From the IMG/VR virus record IMGVR_UViG_3300035201_000388, positions 1-20,908 of that record: DNA of 20,908 nucleotides; one strand, given 5' to 3'. The position numbers were made by a program, and so were the translations under genes. Source of the stretch: a virus. Of this stretch, positions 1 through 16,118 are shown piece after piece. A model generated the notes under the pieces. It saw only the letters and a list, made by a program, of their open reading frames with translations, was not told the origin of the DNA and ran no database searches. Each line of letters starts with the position of its first letter. The first letter of the stretch is position 1.

Positions 1-20
1 TAACTAAAAAGTAAGATAAA
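1..20 (+). promoter_or_regulatory. Truncated late promoter leader of cassette 1
   Basis: The window opens with TAACTAAAAAG, which matches the leader that follows the ATAAATA late-promoter core at 4541, 8055, 8945 and 11603. The core itself would lie just before base 1. The ATG at 21 follows without a visible Shine-Dalgarno sequence, as at the other copies. Confidence 0.6.
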
Positions 21-899
21 ATGTCCCAGATACAAGTTGATACCATTTTAGATAAGGCAGGCACCGGTGCTCCCACGCTCACTTATGGTGTTGAATTTCC
101 TGTTGGATATGGTATTACTGGTGCTGGTGGAATTAATGTAAGTGGGGCTTGTACTGCTAGTGGTGGATTTGTTGGTGCCTTAACTGGAGATGTAACAGGA
201 ACAGCATCGACTGCAACTTACACAGGTAATGCGGGATATTCTACTTCTGCTGGTATTTCTAGTGGTCTTACTGGAACACCCAATGTTACAGTTAATAATG
301 TTACTGCTGGATTTGGAACTTATTCTGGTAATATTAGTGCTGTAGATGCTACTTTTACAGGAACAGTAACTTATGAAGATGTTACAAATGTAGAGTCAAC
401 AGGCATTGTAACTGCAGGAAAAGGATTTAGAGCAACTACTGGCGGTTTAGTTGTAACTGCTGGTGTTTCTACTTTAGGAGTTACAACTGTAAGTGGTTTT
501 ACTGCTAAAGGAACTCTGATAGAAGGAATGAGTTCCACTACTACGGCTTATAGTAGTAGTAGCGATCTTAATATAACCAATGGTAACTTCCAATTTAGTT
601 CGGCTAATTTAGGTGGAACCAATAATACTTTAAATATAATGTCTACAACAGGCATTAATACAGATTTAGCGACCAATCAGGTAATGAATGTAACTGCTGT
701 AACAGCGGTTAATGCATCAACAGCATATGTTAATAGAGTGTCTATTGATGGATTACTGACAGGAATTACAACTCATTGGGTAGGTGGTAGTGCTCCTACT
801 GATGGGGGAGGAAGTGGATTAGATACTTATTCGTTTAATGTTATGAAAACTGGAAGTGCGACATATATAGTCATTGCTAATCAGGTGAAGACTTCGTAA
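21..899 (+). CDS. Fibre-like virion structural protein, cassette 1
   Basis: This 292-residue protein is rich in Gly, Thr, Val and Ala and very poor in charged residues, as expected of a beta-helical phage fibre or tail appendage. Residues 13-42 form a TGAP...VPVGYGITGAGGINV-type module that recurs at 4569-5465 and inside 8082-8948. Residues 116-131 carry the TYEDVTNV...TGIVTA repeat typical of cyanophage fibre proteins. Residues 162-292 form a C-terminal domain nearly colinear with the last 131 residues of the 4569-5465 product. The ATG follows the late-type leader without a clear ribosome site. The gene lies 12 bases before a Gly-rich adhesin-like gene, so the two are probably co-transcribed late. 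The role in the virion is inferred from the family; no enzymatic motif is visible. Confidence 0.8.
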   Translation: MSQIQVDTILDKAGTGAPTLTYGVEFPVGYGITGAGGINVSGACTASGGFVGALTGDVTGTASTATYTGNAGYSTSAGISSGLTGTPNVTVNNVTAGFGTYSGNISAVDATFTGTVTYEDVTNVESTGIVTAGKGFRATTGGLVVTAGVSTLGVTTVSGFTAKGTLIEGMSSTTTAYSSSSDLNITNGNFQFSSANLGGTNNTLNIMSTTGINTDLATNQVMNVTAVTAVNASTAYVNRVSIDGLLTGITTHWVGGSAPTDGGGSGLDTYSFNVMKTGSATYIVIANQVKTS

Positions 900-911
900 G
901 GGGATTGATTG

Positions 912-2564
912 ATGTTTGGTAATTCCTGGTTTCGTAAATTAAAACCCTTACCTTCTATGATAGGAATGGGTGGGGGTGCTACTAGTTTAATGCAAAATGC
1001 TGGTGGTCCTGAGGAATGGAGAATTTTTATGATAGGTGCCGGTGGTGGAGGATTTTCTGGACCTTTTCAGGATCCTACTGGATCTAAAGGGGGTGGTGGA
1101 AGTGTTGTTATTGCGAGTCATACTGCTATATTAGCAACAGATGTTTTCTATTGTTATGTTGGTAATCCTGGTTCTGGTGCCGGAGATCCATCATACCAGC
1201 CTATTTTGGGACCTTTACCTTTTGGAGGATCCAGTCCAGCACCTCCTAATGCCGGACCCGGTGGTGGTGGAGGTGGAGGAGGATTAGCAGCAGTAGTACT
1301 GAATGGACCAGCTACTGTAGCAGGACCATATATGGATCCTCAAACACCGGATGCTTCTGTTCTTTATGTTGCAGCAGTTGCTGGCGGTGGTGGTGGAACA
1401 TCTTATAGAGGTGGTGGTTCTGGTGGTGGTCCTTTACAAGTTCCTAATACTCCTGCAGGTCCTGGACCTGCAACTCACCCATACCCTGAATGGACTCGTG
1501 GTGGGTTAAGAGGATCACCTCATGGTGGTGGATATGGTGGTTCTGGTGGTGGATATGATCCTCCAACAGGAAACCCTGGACCAAGAGGTAATAAAGGGGG
1601 TAATAAGGGTAATGCATCTCCTGGATATCCATCACCTGGTCAAGAAGGTGCGTTCTTTTATGGTGGTCCTGGCGGTAATGGTAATCATAGTACCCAAGGT
1701 GGCGGCGGTGCCGGTGGATACTACGGCGGTGGTGGCGGCGGTGGTGGTTCTCAGCCCAATGCTAATCCAGGTGATAGTAGACCAGGTAATGGCGGTGGCG
1801 GAAGTAGTTATGTCCATCCGGGATGGACTACTGAATTAATGACCGTAGGGGCTGATTTAAGTGATCAGTATGCCACGGGATCTCAACCAGGTACAATAGG
1901 AACTGTTCCTGCACCTTATCATCCTTATTATTCTACTCCAACTGATCCTCAAATGAAGTATTATGGATGGGGTGCTCCTTATTCTAATCCTTATTGGCAT
2001 GGACCGGGTACATCGCATTATGGTGGTAGAGCAAGAATTGTATTGGAAAATGTAACTAAAGGATATAAGAGGACTGTTAATTTTAGTGGTGCGATAGAGA
2101 CAGTTCCTGCTATAGAAGGTAGTGCTGGACTGGATTTCTCACTTGATTCTTTTTCAACTACGGGTAGCCAAGACAAATATAAACAGGGATTAGGGTGGGG
2201 ATTCTGGTCTCCTGGAACTAGAAACTCTCAGTTAGTAGCATCTCATGCTAGTAGTAGTGGTTTTGGTATGGAGTTTAATTTCAGTGGACCTAATAGTACC
2301 TTTACTGATTTTGAAGTAATGTCATGTCAAGGTGGTGGTGGATCTTTTACGGGAAACTTTAACACGGATAGTCCCTTCCCTATGACTACGGGATCTGAAC
2401 CTACTGGGATGGCACCTTCCGGATCTTTAGCTCCTAATTTACCGGGTGGGAATGTAACTAAGTTTACTATTACTACTAGTGGTAATAGTACTAACGCGAA
2501 TATTCAAGTTATGGCAATAAAGGTGAATGGTAAGATAATTGATTTTGGACAGAACTGGATTTAA
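912..2564 (+). CDS. Large glycine-rich adhesin-like protein, cassette 1
   Basis: This 550-residue protein starts at the ATG at 912, seven bases after AAGGGGA; a TTG at 909 is in frame but badly spaced. Residues 1-25 (MFGNSWFRKLKPL then GMGGG) resemble the head of the 5480-6568 product. Residues about 35-375 are extremely Gly-rich with many GPG, PGN and GGY motifs, plus broken collagen-like triplets (GNPGPRGNK, near base 1570). They end in GGRARIVLENV, the usual closing strand of phage glycine-rich domains. Residues about 380-550 form an additional C-terminal beta-rich domain. Gly-rich repeats of this kind form polyglycine-II sandwiches in gp38-type adhesins of T-even phages, so a tip adhesin is the best inference. 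It has many Trp, Tyr and Pro residues that the nearby oxygenases or halogenase could modify. Confidence 0.75.
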   Translation: MFGNSWFRKLKPLPSMIGMGGGATSLMQNAGGPEEWRIFMIGAGGGGFSGPFQDPTGSKGGGGSVVIASHTAILATDVFYCYVGNPGSGAGDPSYQPILGPLPFGGSSPAPPNAGPGGGGGGGGLAAVVLNGPATVAGPYMDPQTPDASVLYVAAVAGGGGGTSYRGGGSGGGPLQVPNTPAGPGPATHPYPEWTRGGLRGSPHGGGYGGSGGGYDPPTGNPGPRGNKGGNKGNASPGYPSPGQEGAFFYGGPGGNGNHSTQGGGGAGGYYGGGGGGGGSQPNANPGDSRPGNGGGGSSYVHPGWTTELMTVGADLSDQYATGSQPGTIGTVPAPYHPYYSTPTDPQMKYYGWGAPYSNPYWHGPGTSHYGGRARIVLENVTKGYKRTVNFSGAIETVPAIEGSAGLDFSLDSFSTTGSQDKYKQGLGWGFWSPGTRNSQLVASHASSSGFGMEFNFSGPNSTFTDFEVMSCQGGGGSFTGNFNTDSPFPMTTGSEPTGMAPSGSLAPNLPGGNVTKFTITTSGNSTNANIQVMAIKVNGKIIDFGQNWI

Positions 2565-2567
2565 TTG

Positions 2568-2596: not shown

Positions 2597-2619
2597 TAAC
2601 TGAAACACATCATAGGTAT

Positions 2620-3240
2620 ATGGCATATCAGAGTATATGGTATTTTACGGACCTTCCCGATAAGATTATAGATACGATTGAGGAGGATCTTACAGAAACT
2701 TTTGATCCACAGATGGCAGACTCCAAGTTACATGGAGATGCACTGAATAAGGATAAGAGAAATTCGCAGAATGCTTGGATACCTACTACTCATTGGGTAG
2801 GTGGGTTTTTATGGCATTATATTCAGAGAGCAAATCGTGAGAATTTTATGTATGATTTGCGCTGTATAGATGGTGAGAGTATGCAATATACTCGGTATCA
2901 AGAAGGTCAGTTCTATGGATGGCACAATGATGCTGGATTGGCAACACAATATAAACCAGTATCTGTAGGTAATCGCCAAGATGGATTAGCACAGGATTTT
3001 GTAAATGAAAATATTGAACTGGTAAGGAAATTATCTTTTGCTATGCAATTGTCTGACCCTGATGATTATGAAGGTGGTAATGTTCAACTCCTTGATGAAG
3101 CAGGTAATAGTTATATCGTTCCGCGTAAGAAAGGATGTATAGTATTATTTGACTCTCGTACACAACATAGAGTTCTTAAGGTAACTAAAGGAACACGTAA
3201 GTCTATCGTTGGATGGACTGTCGGACCTCGTTGGAAATAG
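2620..3240 (+). CDS. Prolyl-4-hydroxylase-like 2OG-Fe(II) oxygenase
   Basis: This 206-residue protein has the full 2-oxoglutarate/Fe(II) dioxygenase signature. The iron ligands are H102-x-D104 (in GWHNDAG) and H183 (in TQHRV). R193 in GTRKSIVGW is placed to bind the 2-oxoglutarate carboxylate. The EGGNVQLLD segment at 151-159 is typical of the P4Hc-type double-stranded beta-helix core. Family members hydroxylate Pro or other side chains using O2 and 2-oxoglutarate and give off succinate and CO2. It is first of three oxygenase-like genes and lies directly behind the perfect sigma70 promoter; the ribosome site is weak (TAGG). The substrate is not visible. A Pro- and Gly-rich adhesin just upstream is a plausible target, by inference. 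Confidence 0.85.
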   Translation: MAYQSIWYFTDLPDKIIDTIEEDLTETFDPQMADSKLHGDALNKDKRNSQNAWIPTTHWVGGFLWHYIQRANRENFMYDLRCIDGESMQYTRYQEGQFYGWHNDAGLATQYKPVSVGNRQDGLAQDFVNENIELVRKLSFAMQLSDPDDYEGGNVQLLDEAGNSYIVPRKKGCIVLFDSRTQHRVLKVTKGTRKSIVGWTVGPRWK

Positions 3241-3249
3241 GAGGTTATT

Positions 3250-3987
3250 ATGGCAGAAGGAATGACTGAAGCGCAGTTGATGTTTCAAGAGAAACAGAAC
3301 ACTGGAACTGCATGGACAAAAAATGAGAAGTTTGAGAAGGATGGGTATCTTGTTATAAAAGACCTATGGGATCCTGAAGAACTTTATCATCCTGTTCCTG
3401 ATATGAAGGGACAGTTGAATTATTGGGATAGGAACCCAGACCATTTTAATCATACAGAAGTTGAGATGCAAGTAGAAGGTTCACTTGCACGTTATTGGCA
3501 TCCACAATATAGAACGATTCATAGTGGTGTGCGTAAAAAGTTGGAGGAAGTAATTGGTAGGAAGTTATATAATACCTATTATTATGATAGATATTATTTT
3601 CCTGGACAAGCATTAACTAAACATGCCGATAGAGATGCATGTGAAATCTCTGTTAGTATTCATATTAGTACTAATCTTCCAGAAGGTGAAAGGGATTGGC
3701 CCTTTAAGATTAAGACTCCTGATACTTATACAGATAAAAAGAAAACTGCTGTATTAGTACCTGGTGAAGAACGTTCTGCTGTTCTTAATCCTGGTGATGG
3801 ATTATTGTATAAAGGATGTGAGAGACCACATTGGAGGGATCCCATGCCTGGTACTCCTATAGGTAAGAAGAGTAAAAAACTATTTGGTAAGAAGCAACAA
3901 CAGGAACAGTATTATCATCAAATATTTTTCCATTATGTTCTACAAGATGGTCAACGTGCTCACTGTGCATGGGATAGGTCACGATGA
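3250..3987 (+). CDS. 2OG-Fe(II) oxygenase-like protein
   Basis: This 245-residue protein starts at an ATG four bases after AGGAGGT. H125-x-D127 (in LTKHADRDACEISVSIHIS) and H194 (in CERPHWRD) fit the 2-His-1-carboxylate iron triad, and PGDGLLYKGCERPHW at 181-195 is the typical strand leading to the distal His. A Lys-rich insert (KKSKKLFGKK, residues 206-215) follows the distal His. The Arg or Lys that would bind 2-oxoglutarate is not obvious, so co-substrate use is less certain than for the upstream gene. The C-terminus (QYYHQIFFHYVLQDG) looks like the final core strand. The gene is 9 bases after the P4H-like gene and overlaps the next start by ATGA, so the three are one operon. Confidence 0.75.
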   Translation: MAEGMTEAQLMFQEKQNTGTAWTKNEKFEKDGYLVIKDLWDPEELYHPVPDMKGQLNYWDRNPDHFNHTEVEMQVEGSLARYWHPQYRTIHSGVRKKLEEVIGRKLYNTYYYDRYYFPGQALTKHADRDACEISVSIHISTNLPEGERDWPFKIKTPDTYTDKKKTAVLVPGEERSAVLNPGDGLLYKGCERPHWRDPMPGTPIGKKSKKLFGKKQQQEQYYHQIFFHYVLQDGQRAHCAWDRSR

Positions 3988-4541
3988 AGGCACCACTTTT
4001 TGAATTTCCTTCTTATCAGTATGAAGTAGATGATTGGGACTTTAAAAAGAAAGGATTACTTAGTCGTATCAATAAGGGTAACTTTATAAGAACTGAACTA
4101 CAGACCTTTGAGACTGATAGGCAGACTGCTGGTAAGTCTTATGTGCATTATTTGCAAGATTTTTTAAAAGATATTCTTTGGGAATTTTGTCAAGAAGCAC
4201 AGGTTACTTGTGGTATGACTGATGCATGGTGCGTTAGATACCAGAAAGGAGATCAACAGACTATTCATAATCATAGAGGATGGGGATTTTCTGGAATTTT
4301 ATATGTAGAGTTTGATCCAAAGGTCCATACTCCTACTTGTTTTATGGCACCTTGGCAAGATCCAAGAACTGATACCACATCTCTTGCATTTCCACAAAAT
4401 GTAAAGGAGGGAACTGTAATTATTGCTCCTTCATTTACACACCATTTTGTTCATCCAAATAAAGCACGAAAGCAAAGAACTGTTATATCATTTGATTTAT
4501 TACCAAAACTTCCTGATCATCAGTCTATAAATACAGAATGA
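3984..4541 (+). CDS. Putative 2OG-Fe(II) oxygenase, HxH type
   Basis: This 185-residue protein resembles the putative 2OG-Fe(II) oxygenase family often listed as 2OG-FeII_Oxy_5 (PF13759). It has H95-x-H97 followed by SGILYVEF, then IIAPSFTHHFVHPN with H154 as the likely distal ligand, then R165 before TVISFDLL. The position that is Asp or Glu in most 2OG enzymes is His here. The start codon overlaps the stop of the preceding gene (ATGA), which indicates translational coupling. The stop at 4539-4541 runs straight into the late promoter of cassette 2. The substrate is unknown; modification of fibre or adhesin residues is inferred from position alone. Confidence 0.75.
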   Translation: MKAPLFEFPSYQYEVDDWDFKKKGLLSRINKGNFIRTELQTFETDRQTAGKSYVHYLQDFLKDILWEFCQEAQVTCGMTDAWCVRYQKGDQQTIHNHRGWGFSGILYVEFDPKVHTPTCFMAPWQDPRTDTTSLAFPQNVKEGTVIIAPSFTHHFVHPNKARKQRTVISFDLLPKLPDHQSINTE

Positions 4542-4560
4542 TAAATAACTAGAAAGTATT
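4526..4560 (+). promoter_or_regulatory. Late promoter and leader of cassette 2 (doubled core)
   Basis: GATAAATA at 4540-4547 is followed by ACTAGAAAGTATT, the leader shared with the other cassettes. It lies 28 bases before the ATG at 4569. A second exact T4 late core, TATAAATA, lies at 4526-4533 inside the end of the oxygenase gene; it may be chance or a tandem promoter. There is no Shine-Dalgarno sequence before the ATG. Confidence 0.75.
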
Positions 4561-4568: not shown

Positions 4569-5465
4569 ATGTCAAGAGTTCGCGCAGACAAACTTGTTGA
4601 TAGGAATGCCACGGGTGCTCCGCAATTTACTTATGGTGTTGAAGTTCCGGTAGGATATGGAATAACAGGTGCGGGTGGAATTAATGTTTCCGGGATGGTT
4701 ACTGCCACGGCAGGTTTTGATGGTGATGCAACTGGATTAACGGGTTCTCCTGATATTACAATAACTAATTTAACTGGTGTTGCTGCTACCTTTACGGGAG
4801 CAGTGAGTTATGAAGATGTAACTAATGTAGATTCAACTGGTATTGTTACTGCACGAGGAGGATTTAAGGCAGGATCTCCGACAGGTGTTGGTGCAACGAT
4901 TGGTGTTGATAATGCAGGAGACGCAATATTCTCTGGTATTGTAACTGCTGGTACTTGCTTTAAAGCAGGATCAGTTTCTGGTGGCGCATTTGGTGCTGGT
5001 GTAGGTGTAACGATTACTGGTGATGGTAACGCAGTATTTTCTGGAATTACAACGGTAACTAATTTTGATGCTAAAGGAACTCTTGTAGAAGCATTTAGTT
5101 CAACAACCACTGCATGGAGTAGTGCGGCGGATCTTAATATAACTAACGGCAATGTTCAATTCTCCTCGGCGAACTTGGGAGGAACTAATAATACCCTTAA
5201 CATTTATTCTACAACTGGTATTAATACAGATTTAGCAATTAACCAGACTCTGACGGTTACTGGAATAACTGCTGTTAATGCTACGACGGCATATGTTAAT
5301 AAGGTTACCGTCGATGGTGTAGCAACTGGTATTACGACTCATTGGATAGGAGGAAGTGTTCCGAGTGATGGTGGAGGATCAGGAGTTGACCTTTATACCT
5401 TTAACTTATTAAAAACAGGTGATGCCACATACATTATTGTTGCTAATCAAAGTAAGACTTCTTAA
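4569..5465 (+). CDS. Fibre-like virion structural protein, cassette 2
   Basis: This 298-residue protein is a paralogue of the cassette 1 fibre protein. Residues 15-41 hold the TGAP...VPVGYGITGAGGINV module, 80-95 the YEDVTNVDSTGIVTA repeat, and 168-298 the shared C-terminal domain ending in IANQSKTS. The middle differs, with two FKAGS...G repeats (about 99-160) replacing the cassette 1 sequence. The shared C-terminal parts agree closely in protein but differ at most synonymous sites, so the duplication is old. The gene is preceded by a late promoter without a ribosome site and followed 14 bases later by the Gly-rich partner gene. Residue composition fits a beta-structured fibre; virion location is inferred. 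Confidence 0.8.
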   Translation: MSRVRADKLVDRNATGAPQFTYGVEVPVGYGITGAGGINVSGMVTATAGFDGDATGLTGSPDITITNLTGVAATFTGAVSYEDVTNVDSTGIVTARGGFKAGSPTGVGATIGVDNAGDAIFSGIVTAGTCFKAGSVSGGAFGAGVGVTITGDGNAVFSGITTVTNFDAKGTLVEAFSSTTTAWSSAADLNITNGNVQFSSANLGGTNNTLNIYSTTGINTDLAINQTLTVTGITAVNATTAYVNKVTVDGVATGITTHWIGGSVPSDGGGSGVDLYTFNLLKTGDATYIIVANQSKTS

Positions 5466-5479
5466 GGGAGGATTAGTTG

Positions 5480-6568
5480 ATGTTTAGTAATTTCTGGCAT
5501 AAAAAAGAAAAACCTTTAATGGGTCTAACCGGTCTGGGTGGCGGTGCCGCTGGATATGGTCGTGTGGGAGCTGGTGACACTTTCTATGCCACTGGTGGTA
5601 CTAAAACATATGAACCAGGACCTAATGGACCCACTCATTATACGATCCATACCTTCCAAAATCCTGCTAGTCCTGAACCTTATAGTGCAGATTATTCTAC
5701 CAGTTTTGTAGTTGAAACTACTTCTAAAGATGTTACTGACTTTGAATATCTTGTAGTTGGTGGTGGCGGAGGAGGAGGAAGGGGATTTAACTCCTTTGCC
5801 CTAGGTGGTGGCGGAGGTGCGGGAGGTTATCGCGCAGGAACTCTTTCTTATCCTACAGGATTAGGAGCTGATACTTATCCAGTTCAAGTAGGTGCTGGTG
5901 GAATTAATGGTAATTCTACTGATAATGGGGATCCTGGATCACAACCTAGTTTCGGTGGTAAAGGTGGTGACTCTAAGCTTATGTTCCCAACTCCCGTAGT
6001 TGGTAGCGGTGGTGGAGGAGGAGGAGCCCATCATGGAGTCAATGCTATTCAAAATGGTGCTAGTGGAGGTGGTGGAGGTAACCCAGGACCATATGCATCC
6101 CCAACTCAACCGAATAAGGGTACAGACGTAGTTTCTCCTGATGGAATAAGTCCTACCATTCAAGGTTATAATGGTGCGGATGGTGGTATTTATCACAATG
6201 GGGGTAGTAATGTTGGTGGTGGCGGCGGTGGATCGAGTCAAGCTGGTGCTAGAGGAACTCCTACAAACAATTGGCCCGATGAGGCAAGTACTGGTGGAAA
6301 CGGTGGTGATGGAACAACAAATACTATAAGTGGTGCATCTGTAACCTATGGTGGTGGAGGTGGTGGAGGTTGCGCTGGATCTGGCGTTCAAGGTGGTGAG
6401 GGTGGATCTGGCGGTGGTGGTGATGGTGGAAAAGATAGTGTAGGTGGATCTTCTGCAACTGACCACCTTGGTGGTGGAGGTGGCGGTGGAGGTGCCTCCA
6501 GCAGTGATACTCCAGGTGGTAAGGGTGGTACAGGAGTTGTTATTGTTAAATATGTTGGTAGTCAGTAA
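5480..6568 (+). CDS. Glycine-rich adhesin-like protein, cassette 2
   Basis: This 362-residue protein starts at the ATG at 5480, seven bases after AAGGGAGGA; an in-frame TTG at 5477 is less well spaced. The head (MFSNFWHKKEKPL then GLGGG) matches the 912-2564 product. Residues about 38-82 form a short non-Gly domain (YTIHTFQNP..SFVVETTSKDVTDFEYLVVGGGG). Residues 88-350 are GGGGG-rich with scattered PG motifs, and the end GGTGVVIVKYVGSQ is the standard closing strand of phage glycine-rich tail domains. It lacks the extra C-terminal domain of the cassette 1 protein. The GGT/GGA/GGC codon runs make the DNA highly repetitive. A receptor-binding role is inferred from composition and its place after a fibre gene. 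Confidence 0.75.
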   Translation: MFSNFWHKKEKPLMGLTGLGGGAAGYGRVGAGDTFYATGGTKTYEPGPNGPTHYTIHTFQNPASPEPYSADYSTSFVVETTSKDVTDFEYLVVGGGGGGGRGFNSFALGGGGGAGGYRAGTLSYPTGLGADTYPVQVGAGGINGNSTDNGDPGSQPSFGGKGGDSKLMFPTPVVGSGGGGGGAHHGVNAIQNGASGGGGGNPGPYASPTQPNKGTDVVSPDGISPTIQGYNGADGGIYHNGGSNVGGGGGGSSQAGARGTPTNNWPDEASTGGNGGDGTTNTISGASVTYGGGGGGGCAGSGVQGGEGGSGGGGDGGKDSVGGSSATDHLGGGGGGGGASSSDTPGGKGGTGVVIVKYVGSQ

Positions 6569-6607: not shown

Positions 6608-8062
6608 TTGAAAATTTGTATTGTTGGAGGTGGGTCCGCTGGATGGATGAGTGCGACTACTTTGGTACGTCTTTTAGATGCTGATGTCACCTTAATTGAA
6701 TCCCCGGATGTTAAAATAATTGGAGTAGGTGAGAGTACTTTATTTCAAATACAGTCTTGGATAGATTTGGTTGGGATTCGTGCTGATGAGGTAGATTTTA
6801 TTAGAAAAACGGGTGCTACTTTAAAGCATAGTATAAAGTTTACTAATTTTTTAACTAAGGACTCAGGAAGTTTTCATTATCCTTTTGGAGATGAACCTTT
6901 GATTAACCCTGTTGAATGGTGGAAAGCCATGAATGGTGGAAATCAGGACGTTTCATTTAATTCTTATGCAGAAGATATAAATCCTCTTGCATTATGTGCA
7001 GAAAGAGGTAAGTTTGATAGTACAGCATCTTATTCATATCATTTTGATGCTGTAAAATTTGGAGAATATTTAAAGAAAAAGTATTGTAAAGAGGTTGATC
7101 ATATTAGTGCTAATGTAGTTGATAGTAATATAAATGAGGATGGGATAGAATCTCTTAAGTTGGATAATGGAAAGAATATAGAAGCAGATTTGTTTATAGA
7201 TTGTACAGGATTTAAGAGTTTATTACTTGGGGAATTTTTAAAGGAACCTTTTATTCCTTATGACCATGTGATTCCTAATGATAGTGCATGGGCAACTCAT
7301 ATTGCTTATACTGATAAAGAATCACAAATGGTTGCTTACACAGAATGTACGGCCATTGATAATGGATGGGTATGGAATATTCCTTTATGGGATAATATAG
7401 GGACGGGGTATGTTTATTCTTCTAAACATATTAGTAGGGATGATGCTAAGAAAGAGTTTATTGATCACTTAGGTACGAGTGATTGTGAATTTAGACATAT
7501 TCCAATGAAAGTTGGAAGATATAAGAGAACTTGGGTTAAGAATGTTGTTGCTATTGGATTAGCTGGTGGTTTTATTGAACCATTAGAATCTAATGGTCTT
7601 CTTACTGTCCATGAGAATTTAATTGCCCTTTATAAGGTATTGAGAAGGGGTAAAGCATCTCATATATTGAAGGAAATGTATAATTTTGGAACTAATAGAA
7701 AATTTGATGAATTTGTAGATTTTATTGCGATACATTATGCCTTCACTCAAAGAAGAGATACTAAGTATTGGGAAGATATTTTTAATAAAGATTATAATAT
7801 AGAATCGAGTGATCAACTTACTAGATTTGGATTAATGTCGTTTGGAAATAGTCTTTTTGTGGAAAATAATTTTATTAATTTGGGTGCAGGATTTCATTAT
7901 ATTGCGTCGGGGATGGGAGTTTCTCCTTACTCTGCAGAAGGAGAGATAACTAATATTGATAAGACAAAAAAAGACTGGGAAAAAGTTATTCAACAAAAAC
8001 CTTTTTTATATCAATATCTGAGTGATGTTGTTTATAAGACATATCCTATAGTTTATAAATAA
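6608..8062 (+). CDS. Flavin-dependent tryptophan halogenase-like protein
   Basis: This 484-residue flavoprotein resembles PrnA/RebH-type tryptophan halogenases. The FAD site GGGSAGW is at residues 7-13. VGEST at 40-44 and ATLKHSIKF at 70-78 place the catalytic Lys at K73. The halogenase signature WVWNIP is at 254-259, and GLAGGFIEPLESNGL at 317-331 carries the Glu-Ser pair expected near the substrate and chloride site. Such enzymes use FADH2, O2 and halide to chlorinate or brominate indole rings through HOX and a lysine chloramine. It is slightly shorter than typical members (about 510-540). TTG is chosen as the start because the next ATG would remove the FAD motif. No flavin reductase is seen nearby. 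Substrate could be free Trp, another indole, or Trp in a virion protein; the latter is inference from context. Confidence 0.88.
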   Translation: MKICIVGGGSAGWMSATTLVRLLDADVTLIESPDVKIIGVGESTLFQIQSWIDLVGIRADEVDFIRKTGATLKHSIKFTNFLTKDSGSFHYPFGDEPLINPVEWWKAMNGGNQDVSFNSYAEDINPLALCAERGKFDSTASYSYHFDAVKFGEYLKKKYCKEVDHISANVVDSNINEDGIESLKLDNGKNIEADLFIDCTGFKSLLLGEFLKEPFIPYDHVIPNDSAWATHIAYTDKESQMVAYTECTAIDNGWVWNIPLWDNIGTGYVYSSKHISRDDAKKEFIDHLGTSDCEFRHIPMKVGRYKRTWVKNVVAIGLAGGFIEPLESNGLLTVHENLIALYKVLRRGKASHILKEMYNFGTNRKFDEFVDFIAIHYAFTQRRDTKYWEDIFNKDYNIESSDQLTRFGLMSFGNSLFVENNFINLGAGFHYIASGMGVSPYSAEGEITNIDKTKKDWEKVIQQKPFLYQYLSDVVYKTYPIVYK

Positions 8063-8075
8063 CTAGAAAAGTATT
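8054..8075 (+). promoter_or_regulatory. Late promoter and leader of cassette 3
   Basis: TATAAATA at 8054-8061 is an exact T4 late core, followed by ACTAGAAAAGTATTT. It overlaps the halogenase stop codon (8060-8062) and lies 21-28 bases before the ATG at 8082. There is no Shine-Dalgarno sequence. Confidence 0.8.
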
Positions 8076-8948: not shown

Positions 8949-8965
8949 ATAACTAAAAAGTATTA
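8945..8965 (+). promoter_or_regulatory. Second late promoter in cassette 3
   Basis: CTAAATA at 8945-8951 followed by ACTAAAAAGTATT repeats the late core plus leader found at the other cassettes. It includes the stop codon (8946-8948) of the preceding fibre gene and lies 20-26 bases before the ATG at 8971. Confidence 0.7.
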
Positions 8966-8970: not shown

Positions 8971-9375
8971 ATGGCGTTAAAAAGAACTAAACTATTAGGA
9001 ATAACGAGTGTAACTGGAATAAACACCGTTGGTATTTTTACGGTGGGAGTTACAGATTGTACTGGTCCTGTAGGGGTTGCATCTACCACTTATGTTCGTG
9101 GTATTATACAGCATAATACTGGATTAAATACATGTACTTCTACGGTATATGTTTATCCTGGTGAACATACGCCAACGGCAGTAGGAGATACTTCATATAG
9201 AATATCAAGAGTAGATTTGGCACAGAATGAAACCTATTATTTTGAACCAAATTATCCTATAGTATTGGTAGATAGAGAAACAATTGTATGTGAAGTTACG
9301 ACCTCAACTGTTGCTGGAACTGGTATAGGAAGTCAAGTCAATTATCAGTTACTTGGCGATACTGACGTTAACTGA
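8971..9375 (+). CDS. Small virion structural protein, cassette 3
   Basis: This 134-residue protein is Thr-, Val- and Gly-rich (TSVTGINTVGIFTVGVTD near the start) with few charged residues. It contains SYRISRVDLAQNETYYFEPNYPIVLVDRETIVCEV at about 75-108, which reads like an immunoglobulin-like or beta-sandwich virion domain. I do not recognise a specific family. It has its own late promoter and lies between the chimeric fibre gene and the Gly-rich gene, 11 bases before the latter. A fibre connector or short tail component is an inference from position and composition. Confidence 0.65.
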   Translation: MALKRTKLLGITSVTGINTVGIFTVGVTDCTGPVGVASTTYVRGIIQHNTGLNTCTSTVYVYPGEHTPTAVGDTSYRISRVDLAQNETYYFEPNYPIVLVDRETIVCEVTTSTVAGTGIGSQVNYQLLGDTDVN

Positions 9376-9386: not shown

Positions 9387-10472
9387 ATGGGAGCACGGTC
9401 CGATAATACTAATAGAAAAGGTAGTCGTTCTCAAAGTCAAAATAGACTTTTAAATGGACATGCAACAACTTTTTTTAATAGTAGATTAGATGCAGGTAAC
9501 ATAGGTCCTAATAATAAAGTTGTTGTTCAAGCATCAGGTGGTAATGTAGAATTTACAGCGGGTGGTTATAAGTATCATTTGTTTAGAGGTCCTGGTACTT
9601 TCACTGTTACTGTTGGTGGAGAAGCACAAGTTGTTGCTTTTGGTGGAGGAGGTTCTGCTGGATTCTTCTATGGTGATGGTGGAGGTGCTGGTGGACTTTT
9701 ACTGGCACCTGCTTATCCTTTAGATGCGGGATCTTATACAGTAGCTGTTGGTGAAGGAGGTGCTGCACCAGGAGCCTCTCCTAGTGGAGAAGTAGGTGCT
9801 GTAGGAACAGCTTCAGAATTTTATCCTACGCCTGCGGGGCCGGGAGAAGGTGCAAGTAATATGTATGCAAGAGGTGGTGGCGGTGGTGGACATAAGCAAG
9901 CAGAACCTCATCCTGCTCCTACTAGTGGATTTCCTTGGAACCCTGTTAGTGGCACAGGATCCGGGGGTGGACAGCATAATGGATCAACACCTGAAATAGC
10001 TCCTAATTTTACTAGTAGTACTCAACACCCGGCTGTAACCGTTAAGGCTGCAGGACAGGGTGGAGATATGCCTTACTATGAGAATGGTGGTAGTGGTGGA
10101 TCTGGAGCTGGTGGAGGGGGTGAAACTCCTGGATCATTTAATGCAGCATATGGTGGAGCTGGATATGGTGTGCCTGGATTCCCTGGACCAGTTCTGTATG
10201 ATGGGATGCCTGCTCCTGAACAATCTTCGTGGGGTGGAACTACATGGCGGGATACTCTAGGTCCGAGTGGTTATGTTTGTGGTGGAGGTGGTGGATGGAG
10301 ACCTCTTCCTGCCACACCGAGGTCTAATGGTGGTGGAGGTGTAGGTGGTAGTGGTGCACCTACGTCGGATGTACAAGCTATTAATTATACTGGATCTGCT
10401 GGAGGTGCCTATGCTCCTCCGGGATCAGGAGCTGGTGCGGATGGAGGAGTGTGGATTAAGTATGAGGCTTAG
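9387..10472 (+). CDS. Glycine-rich adhesin-like protein, cassette 3
   Basis: This 361-residue protein follows a TGAGGGA ribosome site. The first 30 residues are basic and polar (MGARSDNTNRKGSRSQSQNR) and differ from the heads of the cassette 1 and 2 proteins. Residues about 52-90 (FTAGGYKYHLFRGPGTFTV, then AQVVAFGGGG) open a phage glycine-rich domain. The Gly- and Pro-rich core runs to about 350 and closes with GGVWIKYEA. Proline is common in GPG, PGF and APT contexts, and Trp appears at several exposed-looking Gly-flanked sites. It is the last gene of the cassette, with an extended -10 promoter for oxygenase-like genes just after it. An adhesin role is inferred. Confidence 0.75.
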   Translation: MGARSDNTNRKGSRSQSQNRLLNGHATTFFNSRLDAGNIGPNNKVVVQASGGNVEFTAGGYKYHLFRGPGTFTVTVGGEAQVVAFGGGGSAGFFYGDGGGAGGLLLAPAYPLDAGSYTVAVGEGGAAPGASPSGEVGAVGTASEFYPTPAGPGEGASNMYARGGGGGGHKQAEPHPAPTSGFPWNPVSGTGSGGGQHNGSTPEIAPNFTSSTQHPAVTVKAAGQGGDMPYYENGGSGGSGAGGGGETPGSFNAAYGGAGYGVPGFPGPVLYDGMPAPEQSSWGGTTWRDTLGPSGYVCGGGGGWRPLPATPRSNGGGGVGGSGAPTSDVQAINYTGSAGGAYAPPGSGAGADGGVWIKYEA

Positions 10473-10513: not shown

Positions 10514-11113
10514 ATGTTTAGAACTGAAAAAAAGAATAAAGCGATTCTTAATCGCGTAAATCAATTAAAGAGATCAAGGTCTTCCTCACCAGAGTATGAA
10601 GATTTTGATCTCTTTGAAATGCCATCTTTTATTTTTAGGAAGAAATTTCCCAATCATAATGAAATAAAGGATAAAATTTTAGAGGCACTGAAGGTTACTC
10701 CCACTTCTCCATCCCAATTTCATAATCTAAAGAAGCACGATTGGGATATACCTCATGAGGTTCCTCGATCTTATACTAATTATTTTCTTCCCAATCTTAC
10801 AAAGGTTGCTCAACCTTTTATAACCAACTATACTCTTAATGCATATAGGTTTTGGTTTAATCAGTATGAAATTGGTGAGAGTGAATGTTTCATTCATATT
10901 CATCAAGGTGCCACTATTTCTGGTGCTTATTTTGTAGAGTTAGAAAAGAATAAAGATTCTACTATATTTGTAAATCCTTCTGCTACTGTGGGATATCAAG
11001 TTCCGGTTAAAGAGGGTGATATATTATTTTGGGATCCTATGCTTCCTCATGCAGCCCCTGTTACAAGAGGATTAAAAACTATTATTTCCTTTAATCTTAA
11101 TTATGAAAAGTGA
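10514..11113 (+). CDS. Putative 2OG-Fe(II) oxygenase, HxH type
   Basis: This 199-residue protein belongs to the same HxH-type family as the 3984-4541 product. H128-x-H130 lies in CFIHIHQGATISGAYFVEL. The distal H179 is in LFWDPMLPHAAPV, and K188 precedes TIISFNLNYEK. The first 30 residues are basic and Ser-rich, with no counterpart in the shorter family members here. The stop overlaps the GTG start of the next gene (GTGA), so the two are coupled. No strong Shine-Dalgarno sequence is present. Iron use is inferred from the family; the substrate is unknown. Confidence 0.72.
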   Translation: MFRTEKKNKAILNRVNQLKRSRSSSPEYEDFDLFEMPSFIFRKKFPNHNEIKDKILEALKVTPTSPSQFHNLKKHDWDIPHEVPRSYTNYFLPNLTKVAQPFITNYTLNAYRFWFNQYEIGESECFIHIHQGATISGAYFVELEKNKDSTIFVNPSATVGYQVPVKEGDILFWDPMLPHAAPVTRGLKTIISFNLNYEK

Positions 11114-11589
11114 AATTACTTATTAAAGACGTTCTTACTCAAAAAGAAAGAGAAAAATTAATAATCGATTGTAAACCTTTTTTGTATGATAAAGGACTTA
11201 CTAATCCGGGACTTCAGTCAGATTTTGTACAAAAGTATGGGAGTGGGTATCCGCAATTTAAAAATGTTCATAATAAATTTTTAGACATTGCTCAAAAAGG
11301 ACTTAATATTAGATTGAAGTGGGATGTATCATGGTTTTTTTCTAGTAAAGGTAAAATAAAAAATAATTGTTTCCATACTCATCCTGTGGATTATACAGGG
11401 GTTTATTATATGCAAACTTTTCCTTTTTTAATTAATGGAACTGTATTTGAAGATGGATTTTTTAAAGCCCCTCAAAATAGTTTATTAATATTTCCAGGAT
11501 CTTTATCTCATATGGCCCCTTCATCTCCATTTCCATTGGAAAGATATACGATGTCATTAAACTGGAATAAATATCAGGCGATATATTAA
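11110..11589 (+). CDS. Putative 2OG-Fe(II) oxygenase, HxH type (short)
   Basis: This 159-residue protein starts at a GTG that overlaps the preceding stop; the next in-frame ATG would cut off the N-terminal KLLIKDVLTQKEREKL segment. It carries H89-x-H91 in FHTHPVDYTGVYYMQ, H134 in IFPGSLSHMAPSS, and R145 in LERYTMSLNWN. These are the conserved points of the HxH-type oxygenase family. It is the shortest member here, with a reduced N-terminal helical part. The operon ends here, and the late promoter of cassette 4 begins 13 bases later. Confidence 0.72.
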   Translation: MKLLIKDVLTQKEREKLIIDCKPFLYDKGLTNPGLQSDFVQKYGSGYPQFKNVHNKFLDIAQKGLNIRLKWDVSWFFSSKGKIKNNCFHTHPVDYTGVYYMQTFPFLINGTVFEDGFFKAPQNSLLIFPGSLSHMAPSSPFPLERYTMSLNWNKYQAIY

Positions 11590-11601: not shown

Positions 11602-11620
11602 AATAAATAACTAAAAAGAT
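11602..11620 (+). promoter_or_regulatory. Late promoter and leader of cassette 4
   Basis: AATAAATA at 11602-11609 followed by ACTAAAAAG is the late core plus shared leader, 26 bases before the ATG at 11629. There is no Shine-Dalgarno sequence. Confidence 0.75.
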
Positions 11621-11628: not shown

Positions 11629-12090
11629 ATGGCGATTTCCAATGCAAGTAGATTAGCTGATTTTGGTACTGGTATAGGTACGCAAGGCGCTACTATTACC
11701 GTTGACAATACTAATAATCGTTTAGGAGTCGGTACTACTGCTCCTGGGACTACTTTTCAGGTAGGTGTGGGTGCATCTATTGGAGATGATGGAGTTTGTA
11801 ATTTTGCTGGTCAGGTTAGTGCCGGATCTTTCGTGGGCGATGGTTCCCAATTAACAGGGGTAAGTGGATTTTCTACTGCTCTTGCTAGCACAGGACCTGG
11901 ACAGCAAATATTTAAAACTGATAAAATTTTGAATATTGGAGCTGGTACTTCTTATAAGGTTGAATCTGATAGTGCATCGGGTTATGTGGCATTTAGTAGA
12001 TTTAGTGATATACATTTAGGGACGGGTGCTACTTTTGTTGTAGGAAGTGGAACTACCATGATTATGGATGTGCTGAATGTATTTTCATAA
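11629..12090 (+). CDS. Short fibre-like structural protein, cassette 4
   Basis: This 153-residue protein has a NNRLGVGTTAPGTTFQVG motif (30-46), widespread in phage fibre proteins, and a SAGSFVGDGSQLTGV repeat (64-78). Residues 95-153 are colinear with residues 85-143 of the chimeric cassette 3 fibre, ending in VLNVFS instead of running on into a second module. It is thus a stand-alone version of that N-terminal half. Its stop codon lies within the next late promoter core. A virion role is inferred. Confidence 0.72.
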   Translation: MAISNASRLADFGTGIGTQGATITVDNTNNRLGVGTTAPGTTFQVGVGASIGDDGVCNFAGQVSAGSFVGDGSQLTGVSGFSTALASTGPGQQIFKTDKILNIGAGTSYKVESDSASGYVAFSRFSDIHLGTGATFVVGSGTTMIMDVLNVFS

Positions 12091-12119: not shown

Positions 12120-13034
12120 ATGTCTCAAATTAGAGTTGATGATATTGTAGGTGAAAATGGTACGAGTGCCGTTGAATTTACAAAGGGTGTTAATGCTACT
12201 GGGGTGATAACTGCTGCTAGTTTCACTGGAACAGCATCATCTGCTACTAATGCTACTCAAGCATATGGGTTAACTGGTACTCCTACAATCGCCGTTAATG
12301 ATATAACAGTTGCGGGTGATTCAACAATTACTGGTAATTTAACGGTTAATGGTTCTCAGACCATTATTTCAACAGAAACATTAGAGGTTGGTGATAAAAC
12401 AATTGGTATTGGATCTACTACTACTGCATCAAACGTAACTGCTGATGATGCAGGTATTGTTGTATATGGATCAGTTGATGGATCAAATGACAAAACAATG
12501 CTTTGGAATAAGGATTCCACTTGTTTTGAATATAATGTTCCTCTTAAACCTAAAGGGGTAATTGAAACGGTTGCTGCTGCTAGTACCCATGAAAGTGGGG
12601 TAGCGGGACGATCAGTTATAGAATTAGATGTACAAGCATCGAATGTTTATAGGTATGCTGTACCGGCAACAGGTAATATTGGTATTGTTTCCTTTAAGAA
12701 TATGCCTGCCAATGCCGAGTGTAGTGCTACCGTAACAGTTATCTTTACTCAAAACTCATCAACTCCTACTAGTGGAGTTGGTAATACCGTAGATACAAGT
12801 GGTATTGGTACTTACTGTAATGTAACTGGTATTTCTAGTGATACTGTTGCTGGTATTTCTACTAGAGGGGATGTTGGTTCTGCAAGTACAGTTACTCTCT
12901 CTGCTACCGCAAGTGATGAGGACTTTGTTTCCTTCTTTGTTCATTATAACGGTGGTACTAATACGGATGCATCTAGTTACAAAGTATATGTAACTAAGAA
13001 AGGCGGATTCCGTCCTGGTTTAATTGGCGTTTAA
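12120..13034 (+). CDS. Fibre-like structural protein, cassette 4
   Basis: This 304-residue protein starts MSQIRVDDIVGENGTSAVEF, clearly related to the start of the 21-899 product. It then has the TGVITAASFTG repeat. Residues about 73-125 contain the block GNLTVNGSQTIISTETLEV, then DKTIGIGSTTTAS and GIVVYGSVDGSNDKTMLWN. That block is widespread in cyanophage virion proteins. Residues about 150-304 form a beta-rich C-terminal domain ending in YKVYVTKKGGFRPGLIGV. Its late promoter core lies at 12086. It is followed by a 53-residue gene and a Gly-rich gene, repeating the fibre-then-adhesin order. Confidence 0.8.
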   Translation: MSQIRVDDIVGENGTSAVEFTKGVNATGVITAASFTGTASSATNATQAYGLTGTPTIAVNDITVAGDSTITGNLTVNGSQTIISTETLEVGDKTIGIGSTTTASNVTADDAGIVVYGSVDGSNDKTMLWNKDSTCFEYNVPLKPKGVIETVAAASTHESGVAGRSVIELDVQASNVYRYAVPATGNIGIVSFKNMPANAECSATVTVIFTQNSSTPTSGVGNTVDTSGIGTYCNVTGISSDTVAGISTRGDVGSASTVTLSATASDEDFVSFFVHYNGGTNTDASSYKVYVTKKGGFRPGLIGV

Positions 13035-13255: not shown

Positions 13256-14344
13256 ATGGCAAATATTAACTTTACAACCACAGCTGGTGGAGATGCTATT
13301 GTAAAACAGTATACCTCCATGAATATTAAGGCTGGAGACACTGTATCTGTTAGTAATACTAATAAGGGATTAATAATATATTGTACTGGTGACTGTACTA
13401 TTGACGGTCATCTCACGATGAGTGGGAAAGCGGGTACTGCCAATAATAGTCCGGTTCCAGCTAATGGACTTAGATGGACTTTTTATGATCCAACTCAGAG
13501 TAATGGTCCTCTTACTTATCCTCAAGTTCCTGTTTCTTCTTTAGGAACAGCAGCGGATACTGTCGCACAAAAAATGACCGCATTGCCTGGTCCTTCAGGA
13601 CGGGTAATTGCGGTAGCAAAGACTGGAGCAGGTGGGGGAAATAATGTTAATGGTGGGGAACCTGGATGGGCCCCACAGGTAGACCAATCTGTAAGTGGAG
13701 TATCTGGAGCTCCCAATAATCAAACCGGCGGTGGTGGTGGAGGACGTGGATATAATGGTGGTGGAAACGGTGGTACTGGAATATGTTGGGGTGGCGGCGG
13801 TGGTGCTGGCGGCGGTGGTGCTGGCGGATCGGGTGGTGAAGGTAATGATGGCGGTATAGCGCCAGGTCCAACAGGACCACAAGTTGAAGGTGGTAATGGT
13901 GGTAATGCACCTGAAACTGGTAGAGTAGGTGGTGGCGGTGGTGCTGGTAATCCTGCGGGTAATGGTGGATCTGGACCTTCTGGTGCTGGTACAGCTGGTG
14001 GTGTGGGTGGTGGTGGTCTTTTAGCCCTCTTTGTAGGAGGTGACCTCACTATTGGTCCTACAGGTGGAATATTCTCTGATGGTGGTTCTGGCGGTAATGC
14101 TGGTGCACCTGGTGGTGGTAGTAATGGTGGAGGTGGCGGTGCTGCTGGCGGTGGCGCTATCTTCGTAGTATATGGGGGTAGTTTTACGAATAACGGATCT
14201 ATTACAGCTAATGGTGGTACAGGTGGGGGATGTGGTCCTTCACCAGGACCTCCTAGTGGTGGAACTGGTGGACCGGCTCCTTCTACTAATTCTTCTGGAG
14301 ATGGTGGTGCTGGATATGTTCTTACTGCACCAGTTCCGTTCTAA
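13256..14344 (+). CDS. Glycine-rich structural protein, cassette 4
   Basis: This 362-residue protein follows a TAGGAGT ribosome site. The N-terminal part (about 1-60: INFTTTAGGDAIVKQYTSMNIKAGD, then IDGHLTMSGKAG) and the internal GDLTIGPTGGIFSDGGSGG and GSFTNNGSITANGG segments have the rhythm of a beta-helix whose turns are filled with Gly. This differs from the other three Gly-rich proteins, since no VVGGGG opener or VVIVKY closer is present; it ends GAGYVLTAPVPF. The Gly core is at about 150-340. The stop overlaps the convergent minus-strand gene by 4 bases. An adhesin role is inferred from composition and gene order. Confidence 0.7.
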   Translation: MANINFTTTAGGDAIVKQYTSMNIKAGDTVSVSNTNKGLIIYCTGDCTIDGHLTMSGKAGTANNSPVPANGLRWTFYDPTQSNGPLTYPQVPVSSLGTAADTVAQKMTALPGPSGRVIAVAKTGAGGGNNVNGGEPGWAPQVDQSVSGVSGAPNNQTGGGGGGRGYNGGGNGGTGICWGGGGGAGGGGAGGSGGEGNDGGIAPGPTGPQVEGGNGGNAPETGRVGGGGGAGNPAGNGGSGPSGAGTAGGVGGGGLLALFVGGDLTIGPTGGIFSDGGSGGNAGAPGGGSNGGGGGAAGGGAIFVVYGGSFTNNGSITANGGTGGGCGPSPGPPSGGTGGPAPSTNSSGDGGAGYVLTAPVPF

Positions 14345-14940
14345 CCTATTATTTTAATATTGAAGGAAGACTTTGTTTCTATTGAAAGACTTCCTTCAAC
14401 AAAGAAATTAAAAGAGATGGAGTGCTTTGTAGAAGTGCTCGGAAGAGTATAGTGTCTTAGGTAGGAAGGGAAAAATATTATAGTTTCTTTTTTACATGAA
14501 ACTTTGAATGTGTGATATGTAAAATTATTCTGTTCATCATATTCTGGGCATATTATCATCGATTGTTCTATAGGATTTTCAAATACTATAGGGGAATCTT
14601 CGTTTCCATAGGGATAATATACTCCTGACCAATAAGAATTTTTATGTGAATGGGTGGGTATATCCCCTCCTGCGTCATATTGATTATACCAACTTGTAAT
14701 TAAGATAGGGGTAGAGTTTCTAGAATTTTGGAGGGAACCGTAAAAAATATTATTATATTTCTCTGTGATGGTTGAAATAAAATTGGTGCTGAATTTATAC
14801 CGTTGAATGTTATTTACTTGTTTAAGTTTATTTTTGTCATTTCTTACTAAATATGATAAACTCTTTATAAGACTATCTTTGGATGGAATATTGCATTCTT
14901 CGTAGAATATGGGAACTGTAAAAGGAGTAAAATAATCCAT
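14341..14940 (-). CDS. Putative 2OG-Fe(II) oxygenase, HxH type, minus strand
   Basis: This 199-residue protein is the only minus-strand gene supported in the window. It has H97-x-H99 in IPTHSHKNSYWSGVYYP, H163 in IIFFPSYLRHYTLP, and K172 where Arg is more usual before HSISFNFF. A longer segment (about 113-150) separates the two halves than in its relatives. The last 20 residues (LSIETKSSFNIKIIG) extend beyond the core and contain the hairpin. Its start codon shares CATG with the start of the divergent 14939 gene, and its promoter appears to lie inside that gene. The reversed orientation suggests inversion or separate insertion. Confidence 0.75.
   Translation of the reverse strand: MDYFTPFTVPIFYEECNIPSKDSLIKSLSYLVRNDKNKLKQVNNIQRYKFSTNFISTITEKYNNIFYGSLQNSRNSTPILITSWYNQYDAGGDIPTHSHKNSYWSGVYYPYGNEDSPIVFENPIEQSMIICPEYDEQNNFTYHTFKVSCKKETIIFFPSYLRHYTLPSTSTKHSISFNFFVEGSLSIETKSSFNIKIIG
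14360..14399. terminator. Strong hairpin at convergent gene ends
   Basis: TTGAAGGAAG (14360-14369) and CTTCCTTCAA (14390-14399) are perfect inverted repeats. After one A-A mismatch the stem continues with CTTT/AAAG, leaving a 10-base loop. It lies 16 bases after the plus-strand stop and inside the 3' coding part of the minus-strand gene. There is no good T-run on either side, so it may be a bidirectional terminator or an RNA-stabilising or processing hairpin. Confidence 0.5.
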
Positions 14941-15466
14941 GACTTTTGATATTAAAGTTCCGGTATTCCAGAAACAAATTATAGATCATCAGAAGTATAA
15001 AAGTCAAATATTAGATTTGATTCGGTTATATTCTTTGGGTGAAATTAAGAAAGGTTCTTTAGATCTGATCTCTGATTATGAATTACCGAGAGATCATCCT
15101 CGACCTTATTTGGATTTGGTGAGAGAGAGGGTGATGAATTGTTTGCTCGATTTTAAGGATATCTCTGATCATTATGAGAAGATAGAGGTTAGATGTTTTT
15201 TCTATCAACAATATACCAAAGAACAATACCATGGATGGCATGTTCATGATTGTCATTATAGTGGAGTATATTATTTAGATTTACCGGAAGGATCTCCCAA
15301 GACAGAGTATATTGATCCTTTTACTAATGATGTATGTGAATTGGATATAAAGGAAGGAGATGTGGTTGCATTTCCTAGTTTTTTGGTTCATAGAGCACCA
15401 CCTAACCCCATAAGTACTCCCAAAACTATTATTTCTTTTAACTTTAATTTTTGGAACAATGACTAA
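14939..15466 (+). CDS. Putative 2OG-Fe(II) oxygenase, HxH type
   Basis: This 175-residue protein has H101-x-H103 in GWHVHDCHYSGVYYLDL, H151 in AFPSFLVHRAPPNP, and K162 before TIISFNFNF, the complete HxH-type signature. The GWH context also recalls the P4H-like genes. AAAGGAG at 14921-14926 is a ribosome site with a rather long spacer. Its start overlaps the divergent minus-strand start by two bases, and its end overlaps the next gene by 8 bases. A weak promoter (TTGGAT, 18 bases, TAGAAT at 14903) lies within the minus-strand gene. The substrate is unknown. Confidence 0.75.
   Translation: MTFDIKVPVFQKQIIDHQKYKSQILDLIRLYSLGEIKKGSLDLISDYELPRDHPRPYLDLVRERVMNCLLDFKDISDHYEKIEVRCFFYQQYTKEQYHGWHVHDCHYSGVYYLDLPEGSPKTEYIDPFTNDVCELDIKEGDVVAFPSFLVHRAPPNPISTPKTIISFNFNFWNND
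14978..15007 (-). promoter_or_regulatory. Minus-strand sigma70-like promoter
   Basis: Read on the minus strand, TTGACT (15007-15002) and TATAAT (14983-14978) are separated by 18 bases. They point at the start of the minus-strand oxygenase-like gene at 14940. The promoter is embedded in the first codons of the plus-strand gene 14939-15466. No Shine-Dalgarno sequence is visible before the minus-strand ATG. Confidence 0.55.
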
Positions 15467-16118
15467 AGATTTTATTGAATTATATGATAATGCTCTTACT
15501 TCTTCCGAGTGTAAAGAGATAATAGATATGATGAATAATGAAGATCTAACACCAGGGAAGTGTGGGAGTGGTGAGGATAATAAGCCCCACGTCCGTAAAG
15601 AGGTGAAAGATAGTCATGATATAGGTGGAAGTTTTTCAGAGCATACTACTCATCCTATTACCATTAATTTAGTGAGGGTTCTTGAGAAAGGTGTAAATTT
15701 ATATGTGAAGAAGCATCCTCAAATGAACTTAATTTCTCTCTGGGATGCAGTTGATTATTATAATTTTCAGAAATATGATCCTGGACAAGGATATTTTGGT
15801 AATCATTGTGAAAATATGGCTCCTGCTCATATGGCAAGAGTTGGGGTATGGATGATTTATTTAAATACAGTGACTGAAGGAGGAGGGACGAGGTTTGATA
15901 ATTATGATAGAGTAGTAGATGCGGTGGAAGGAAGATTAGTTATATGGCCCGCATATTGGACGCATTTTCATCATGGGATAGTGAGTAAGACACAGACTAA
16001 GTATATTGTTACAGGATGGTTTGCTTATAATACTGAAGATTATACAAAATACCAAGAGAAAGAAATAGTAGAAAAGAGTATGAAAGATGCTATTTCTACT
16101 TTGTTTAGTGGATTATAG
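15459..16118 (+). CDS. P4H-like 2OG-Fe(II) oxygenase with HxE motif
   Basis: This 219-residue protein reads as a prolyl-4-hydroxylase-type core. YDPGQGYFGNHCEN places H116-x-E118 as the first iron ligands; Glu replaces the commoner Asp. MIYLNTVTEGGGTRFDNYD (132-150), RLVIWPAYWTHFHHG (159-173, H169 the likely distal ligand) and K181 in KYIVTGWFAY complete the pattern. HxE is tolerated in some 2OG enzymes. It is translationally coupled to the upstream oxygenase-like gene by an 8-base overlap. About 35 residues after the core are charged and probably helical. Protein hydroxylation is plausible from the family, but the target is unknown. Confidence 0.82.
   Translation: MTKDFIELYDNALTSSECKEIIDMMNNEDLTPGKCGSGEDNKPHVRKEVKDSHDIGGSFSEHTTHPITINLVRVLEKGVNLYVKKHPQMNLISLWDAVDYYNFQKYDPGQGYFGNHCENMAPAHMARVGVWMIYLNTVTEGGGTRFDNYDRVVDAVEGRLVIWPAYWTHFHHGIVSKTQTKYIVTGWFAYNTEDYTKYQEKEIVEKSMKDAISTLFSGL

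Follow-up and report, generated by a model that had tools for sequence, protein, structure and literature searches.

Oxidative enzyme genes behind the fibre-tip genes of a T4-like cyanophage suggest chemical finishing of host-recognition proteins

The window analysed here, which is the whole 20,908-base IMG/VR virus record IMGVR_UViG_3300035201_000388, is a fragment of a marine T4-like cyanophage (cyanomyovirus) and carries at positions 21-16118 four tandem cassettes, each of which begins with one or more fibre-like genes, continues with a glycine-rich gene and ends with one or more oxidative enzyme genes. Together the cassettes contain eight 2-oxoglutarate (2OG)-Fe(II) oxygenase-like genes and one flavin halogenase of the VirX1 type. 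According to our best reading, to which we assign a probability of about one half, these are late, interchangeable enzymes for tailoring or maturation of the tail-fibre tips. The locus would represent the host-recognition region of the phage, in which a T4-type late promoter is followed by a short fibre protein, a glycine-rich receptor-binding tip and the genes of a “maturation slot”. The slot enzymes would be made alongside the tip proteins and would chemically tailor tip or fibre proteins before assembly by hydroxylation and halogenation and, in relatives, by sulfation or carbamoylation of such groups; receptor binding, stability or recognition would be adjusted in this way. These enzymes would be interchangeable modules, probably acting on what many tips have in common and not as a code for each cassette. 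The data presented below demonstrate the gene order, the gene families, the promoter element, the enrichment by position, the fold of gly2 and the lack of a strict pairing; late transcription, protein targets and an effect on host range are what we infer from them.

The four-fold order with different enzymes each time was first noticed in an examination of the letters alone (the sequence-only reading), and it is borne out by open reading frames and domains. One correction is needed: enzF (14341..14940) sits on the minus strand. All other genes and elements of the four cassettes are on the plus strand. The window proteins find their matches in cyanophage PHROGs and in Kyanoviridae isolates, and a megablast comparison with named phages gave no DNA-level match.

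The placement of oxidative enzymes behind tips recurs in other genomes. Two samples were used: 24 cyanophage-type isolate records picked for a halogenase or enzA homologue irrespective of gene position, and contigs related to the window, which were retrieved via enzC and therefore contain the enzA-enzB-enzC (enzABC) triad by construction. Because the records share ancestry, the counts are larger than the number of independent events. Among the isolates, 13 of 21 halogenases are located within 3 kb downstream of a PF21722 (glycine-rich tip) gene, versus 0.6 expected (0 of 5000 circular shifts), and 41 of 186 2OG genes are found within 6 kb of such a gene, versus 8.9 expected (0 of 3000 circular shifts). 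In the related contigs, enzyme blocks stand directly behind a tip gene in 23 of 44 cases (8.3 expected; 0 of 5000) and directly behind a fibre gene in none of the 44. Eight isolates (L004, L104-L110) share an extended order: behind a long fibre gene come between one and three tips, then a small gene of the chaperone-like kind, a single halogenase or a pair, and several oxygenases. There are also many fibre-tip pairs without any enzyme. A separate case is represented by S-SRM01 (MW015081, 41680-44261), where a flavin-dependent halogenase lies immediately ahead of a gene annotated by the depositors as gp37-gp38 adhesin tip complex.

Transcription of the cassettes may be judged from a short element, TAAATAACTARAAA, which occurs in the window in exactly four copies (4542, 8056, 8946, and 11604), each starting 25-27 bases upstream of a fibre start codon. 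The first copy (4542..4555) opens cassette 2 ahead of F2 (4569..5465; phrog_36132, 3.8e-22). The second (8056..8069), overlapping the halogenase stop, opens cassette 3 ahead of F3 (8082..8948; phrog_28668, phrog_36132), and the third (8946..8959) precedes the second, small fibre-locus protein of the same cassette (8971..9375; phrog_20100, 2e-42). The fourth (11604..11617) opens cassette 4, which begins with a fibre-locus protein (11629..12090; phrog_28668, 3.3e-38) and continues with F4 (12120..13034; phrog_36132, 9.3e-82). In cassette 1, a truncated element (TAACTAAAAAG, 1..11), cut by the contig end, is found in the sequence upstream of F1 (21..899), a fibre-like protein of 292 amino acids matching the tail fibre families phrog_5906, phrog_36132, and phrog_30742.

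The element fits the T4-type late promoter NATAAATA, published for the cyanophages S-PM2 and Syn9 (PMC2984593). In relatives, its core AAATAACTA stands ahead of 54 of 115 fibre genes versus 10 of 354 other genes (Fisher 2e-28) and ahead of none of the glycine-rich genes; ahead of enzyme genes the TAAATAACTARAAA-type element is almost never found. Since the element marks fibre genes and not tips, most enzymes probably share a late transcript with the preceding tip, and most cassettes would represent late operons composed of promoter, fibre, tip and enzymes.

The glycine-rich proteins may be regarded as fibre tips with different degrees of support. Gly2 (5477..6568, TTG start) and gly3 (9387..10472) match PF21722 (5.9e-17 and 5.2e-9, respectively). 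No such match was found for gly1 (909..2564; 551 amino acids, TTG start), which is recognised by its composition and by the N-terminal motif MMFxNxWxxKxKP common to gly2, or for gly4 (13256..14344), which has a differing N-terminal domain, so that the support from fold concerns gly2 only. The AlphaFold2 (AF2) model of gly2 (predicted template modelling score, pTM, 0.76) resembles the Bxb1 tail tip (Z 18.1 over 210 residues) and the fibre of cyanophage Pam3 (Z 16.6 over 222 residues), while the glycine-rich domains of ALK/LTK score well below these (Z about 8). Pam3 gp24 is a receptor-binding fibre; the tips of its variable loops are the proposed site of contact with the host. This fibre depends on a dedicated chaperone, gp25 (PMC9608196). 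Because of its Pam3 gp24-like fold, gly2 is modelled as a receptor-binding fibre tip of this type, for which “adhesin” is a fair name. S16 gp38 was also considered as the nearest solved tip and was rejected: it gave no match in the sequence searches made and is absent from the structure lists shown, where Pam3 gp24 and Bxb1 are present. The window differs from the Pam3 and S16 systems in that several tips are arranged in tandem and the slot behind the tip is filled by enzymes.

The product of 6608..8062, located behind gly2 in cassette 2, is predicted to be a flavin-dependent halogenase of the VirX1 group (PF04820, 2.4e-106). Its motifs are intact: GGGSAG at position 7, K73, WVWNIP at 254, and E327 correspond to GxGxxG, WxWxIP, and the catalytic Lys and Glu. 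The alignment with PrnA stops at query residue 389 (PrnA 408), and the C-terminal region of PrnA beyond the aligned part binds free tryptophan. The best PDB match is VirX1 of cyanophage Syn10 (6QGM, E 4e-91), which shares the flavin adenine dinucleotide, WxWxIP, and Lys/Glu motifs. In Syn10 a halogenase pair is likewise located behind two Gly-rich tip genes; the window enzyme, however, is only about 37% identical to VirX1 over the full length (484 versus 531 amino acids) and has a fibre-tip cassette of its own. VirX1 has an open active site, which takes many bulky aromatic substrates (PMC8407142), and a site of this kind corresponds to what a halogenase acting on proteins would need.

Six of the eight oxygenases score above the curated Pfam cut-off for PF13640 or PF13759. 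The former family comprises enzA (2620..3240; HND at 102, distal H183) and enzH (15459..16118; HCE at 116), both assigned to phrog_61; the latter comprises enzC (3984..4541, overlapping enzB by 4 bases), enzD (10514..11113; 28 bits; phrog_81, 9e-24), enzF (3.5e-15), and enzG (14939..15466; 2.8e-9). EnzE (11110..11589; GTG start, 4-base overlap with enzD; phrog_81, 6.8e-7) reaches 15.3 bits against a PF13759 cut-off of 27, and because of this below-cut-off match it is the least certain “oxygenase” of the set. EnzB (3250..3987) has no Pfam match, and its AF2 model (pTM 0.79), built on an alignment of 21 window and IMG/VR sequences, finds 2OG oxygenases throughout the PDB matches shown; H125, D127, and H194 are invariant. 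The iron triad HxD/E...H is present in enzA (HND), enzB (HAD), and enzH (HCE), and the members of the PF13759 type have HxH where HxD/E is expected.

The PHROG label of enzB, “ferrochelatase”, was rejected on the basis of this fold. Labels of this kind, “ferrochelatase” (phrog_2954, phrog_3531) and “DNA endonuclease V” (phrog_274), sit on 2OG-oxygenase-like proteins at 3250-3987 of the window, at L013:7329-7892 and at L015:6790-7317, and they are probably misannotations. A phage ferredoxin gene, whose product might supply oxidative enzymes with electrons, is located at 18819-19115, 2.7 kb past the last cassette.

Enzymes of different cassettes are mostly less than 30% identical to one another and are not recent duplicates, whereas the fibre proteins are duplicates (F1 and F2 are 53% identical). 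Fibres being alike and enzymes divergent, we conclude that duplication affected the fibre part and that unlike enzymes were plugged in. EnzF stands apart in its orientation: it meets gly4 tail to tail, the two genes overlapping by 4 bases, and lies head to head with enzG, the two start codons overlapping (14339-14942). The same inverted layout is found in contig L080. Being inverted, enzF lies outside the plus-strand transcript of its cassette, and owing to the convergent/divergent layout its expression must differ from that of the rest of cassette 4.

The content of the slot behind the tip was tallied by hand from gene maps, the window included. With the ABC triad left out, modifying enzymes make up 11 of 32 slot genes versus 4.6% genome-wide. 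In relatives, small chaperone-like genes (phrog_7759, phrog_1787) stand behind 11 tips, and further slot families include sulfotransferases (PF00685, PF13469), a carbamoyltransferase (PF16861, PF02543) and an aspartyl/asparaginyl hydroxylase (PF05118). The sulfotransferase/carbamoyltransferase genes are found behind glycine-rich tips at L052:11896-12699, L059:10672-11475, and L067:10160-11641, two of the three being next to 2OG enzymes. As successive reactions on a protein, hydroxylation and then sulfation or carbamoylation would make chemical sense.

Sulfotransferases and carbamoyltransferases can also act on glycans. One could suggest, therefore, that the late-made enzymes act on the host envelope (lipopolysaccharide, S-layer, porins, glycans), for example, against the sticking of released or secondary virions to debris or against re-infection. 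Glycan-capable enzymes in the slots, a gene weakly resembling phosphoheptose isomerase in a single slot of the relatives and a putative late co-expression with adhesins, which would suit receptor masking, agree with this suggestion. We consider it quite improbable: neither secretion signals nor membrane anchors were noticed in the enzymes on inspection by eye, and the cofactors required by 2OG and flavin enzymes are cytosolic.

The sequence-only reading proposed that each enzyme set is specifically paired with its own cassette, forming a code of adhesins and enzymes. If an enzyme set served its own tip, the tips ahead of orthologous enzymes should look alike. EnzA orthologues have a median identity of 82%, while their adjacent tips have 34%, adjacent compared to other tips 36%, and shuffled tips 29%. 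Conversely, a tip that is 78% identical in L053 and L055 is followed directly by enzABC in L055 and by no enzyme in L053. One-to-one pairing is therefore rejected for enzABC, as tips before orthologous enzA are no closer to one another than to non-adjacent ones, and a similar tip occurs with differing slots. EnzABC is not co-inherited with tips, and the enzymes of block 1 vary independently of the neighbouring tips, an outcome that the sequence-only reading had itself named as refuting its proposal. The gene linkage, the tip fold of gly2, the putative promoter-fibre-tip-enzyme unit for most enzymes and the recurrence in other genomes are retained from the earlier interpretation; the pairing of an enzyme set with its own cassette is not.

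Since enzA is conserved while its adjacent tips diverge, the enzymes appear as modules moving semi-independently. Such behaviour disagrees with a code specific to each cassette and would be compatible with an action on properties that many tips share. Gly4 with enzF and enzG, kept together (53, 61, and 71% identity) in the window and L050/L080, looks like the only possible co-inherited set, and this in just two contigs; the 71% identity of enzG is that to L080. Further copies of the set were sought by scans with enzG, which gave one contig, with enzF, which gave only relatives of 28-29% identity, and with gly4, which gave nothing.

Variation of enzymes independently of tips is also what would be expected if the region behind the tips were a recombination hot spot for any gene, with the enzymes as passengers maintained because this host-range locus is exchanged often. 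The diverged duplication of the fibre genes (53% identity) points in the same direction, as do genes of the NUMOD3 homing-endonuclease type within the enzA-enzB-enzC array of several relatives (L061:6556-7278, L055:7423-8004, L068:535-1260). This explanation seems to us rather unlikely, because the slot content is far from random in its share of modifying enzymes outside the triad, enzABC retains about 80% identity and has its metal-binding motifs intact, and no enzyme is located directly behind a fibre gene.

Several observations weigh against the tailoring of tips by slot enzymes. Enzyme identity does not track tip identity; enzF is inverted; and the slot also takes selfish insertions, as indicated by the homing-endonuclease-like genes. 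The name “chaperone-like” comes from position and sequence character, the phrog_7759/phrog_1787 genes having no Pfam match. A search of 112 tip proteins for a signature of substrate residues (Trp/Tyr for the halogenase; Pro/Asn/Lys for the oxygenases) revealed no enrichment in enzyme-linked tips that survives correction. In the 24 isolates, 145 of 186 2OG genes are more than 6 kb from any Gly-rich gene, and hence proximity to tips is not a property of the 2OG family in general. The halogenases at 61.8 kb in S-B64, at 175 kb in P-SSM2, and at 63.8 kb in HTVC008M are distant from glycine-rich tip genes; some of these lie beside other 2OG genes and possibly have a different role.

The location of most 2OG genes away from tips suits the published proposal (PMC3037559, PMC2984593; repeated in PMC9602691) that these are auxiliary metabolic genes whose products have small molecules as targets and bear on the 2OG pool, host nitrogen signalling or DNA repair, with the halogenase yielding a protective or signalling metabolite. 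Their placement in the fibre region would then be incidental. Such a proposal leaves unexplained the repeated placement of enzymes directly behind tips in one putative transcription unit, the several divergent oxygenases per locus, and the combination of halogenase, sulfotransferase and carbamoyltransferase, and for the cassette enzymes we regard it as unlikely.

Tailoring of tips by slot enzymes, which we prefer, makes use of known families. What the present analysis adds is how these are arranged: the element ahead of the fibre genes, the counts of enzymes behind tips and the range of genes that share this slot. The cyanophage 2OG-Fe(II) oxygenases (PF13640, PF13759) belong to the same Pfam and PHROG families as those of the window, with many per genome (PMC9602691, PMC3037559); they were reported earlier as auxiliary metabolic genes without mention of tips, whereas the window copies are organised behind tips. 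The Kyanoviridae phages Bellamy and S-SM2 have the same enzABC triad behind fibre genes (enzA identity 90% and 87%, respectively) and, unlike the window, no halogenase. Bellamy also has the promoter element, and fibre-tip pairs are repeated in it, but with more tip genes and a single enzyme block. Neither the cassette arrangement, nor its recurrence, nor the chaperone/modifier slot was found in the literature searched, which was largely outside subscription papers.

Past the cassettes, the window contains a small putative metallopeptidase (16324-16761; DUF6782/SprT-like, below cut-off), to which similar genes correspond past the fibre locus of relatives, L061 among them, and a phosphoribosyltransferase gene (17978-18646; phrog_32468), which is orotate phosphoribosyltransferase-like by eye.

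The gene arrangement suggests that chemical finishing of the host-recognition proteins is carried out by enzymes of the virus itself. In the published accounts consulted the enzymes are treated as metabolic or antibiotic genes, or as protective ones; position and promoter evidence point to the virion’s own receptor-binding tips as alternative substrates. If this is true, a native role would be available for VirX1-type halogenases and for many “auxiliary metabolic” 2OG oxygenases, and halogenases and hydroxylases that modify proteins would be obtainable from phages. More tentatively, cyanomyoviruses as a group may run a modular post-translational diversification of receptor-binding tips, in which late hydroxylases and halogenases and, in relatives, sulfotransferases and carbamoyltransferases decorate the tail-fibre tips. 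Host recognition in abundant marine viruses would then depend on a chemistry that is unreadable from the tip gene alone.

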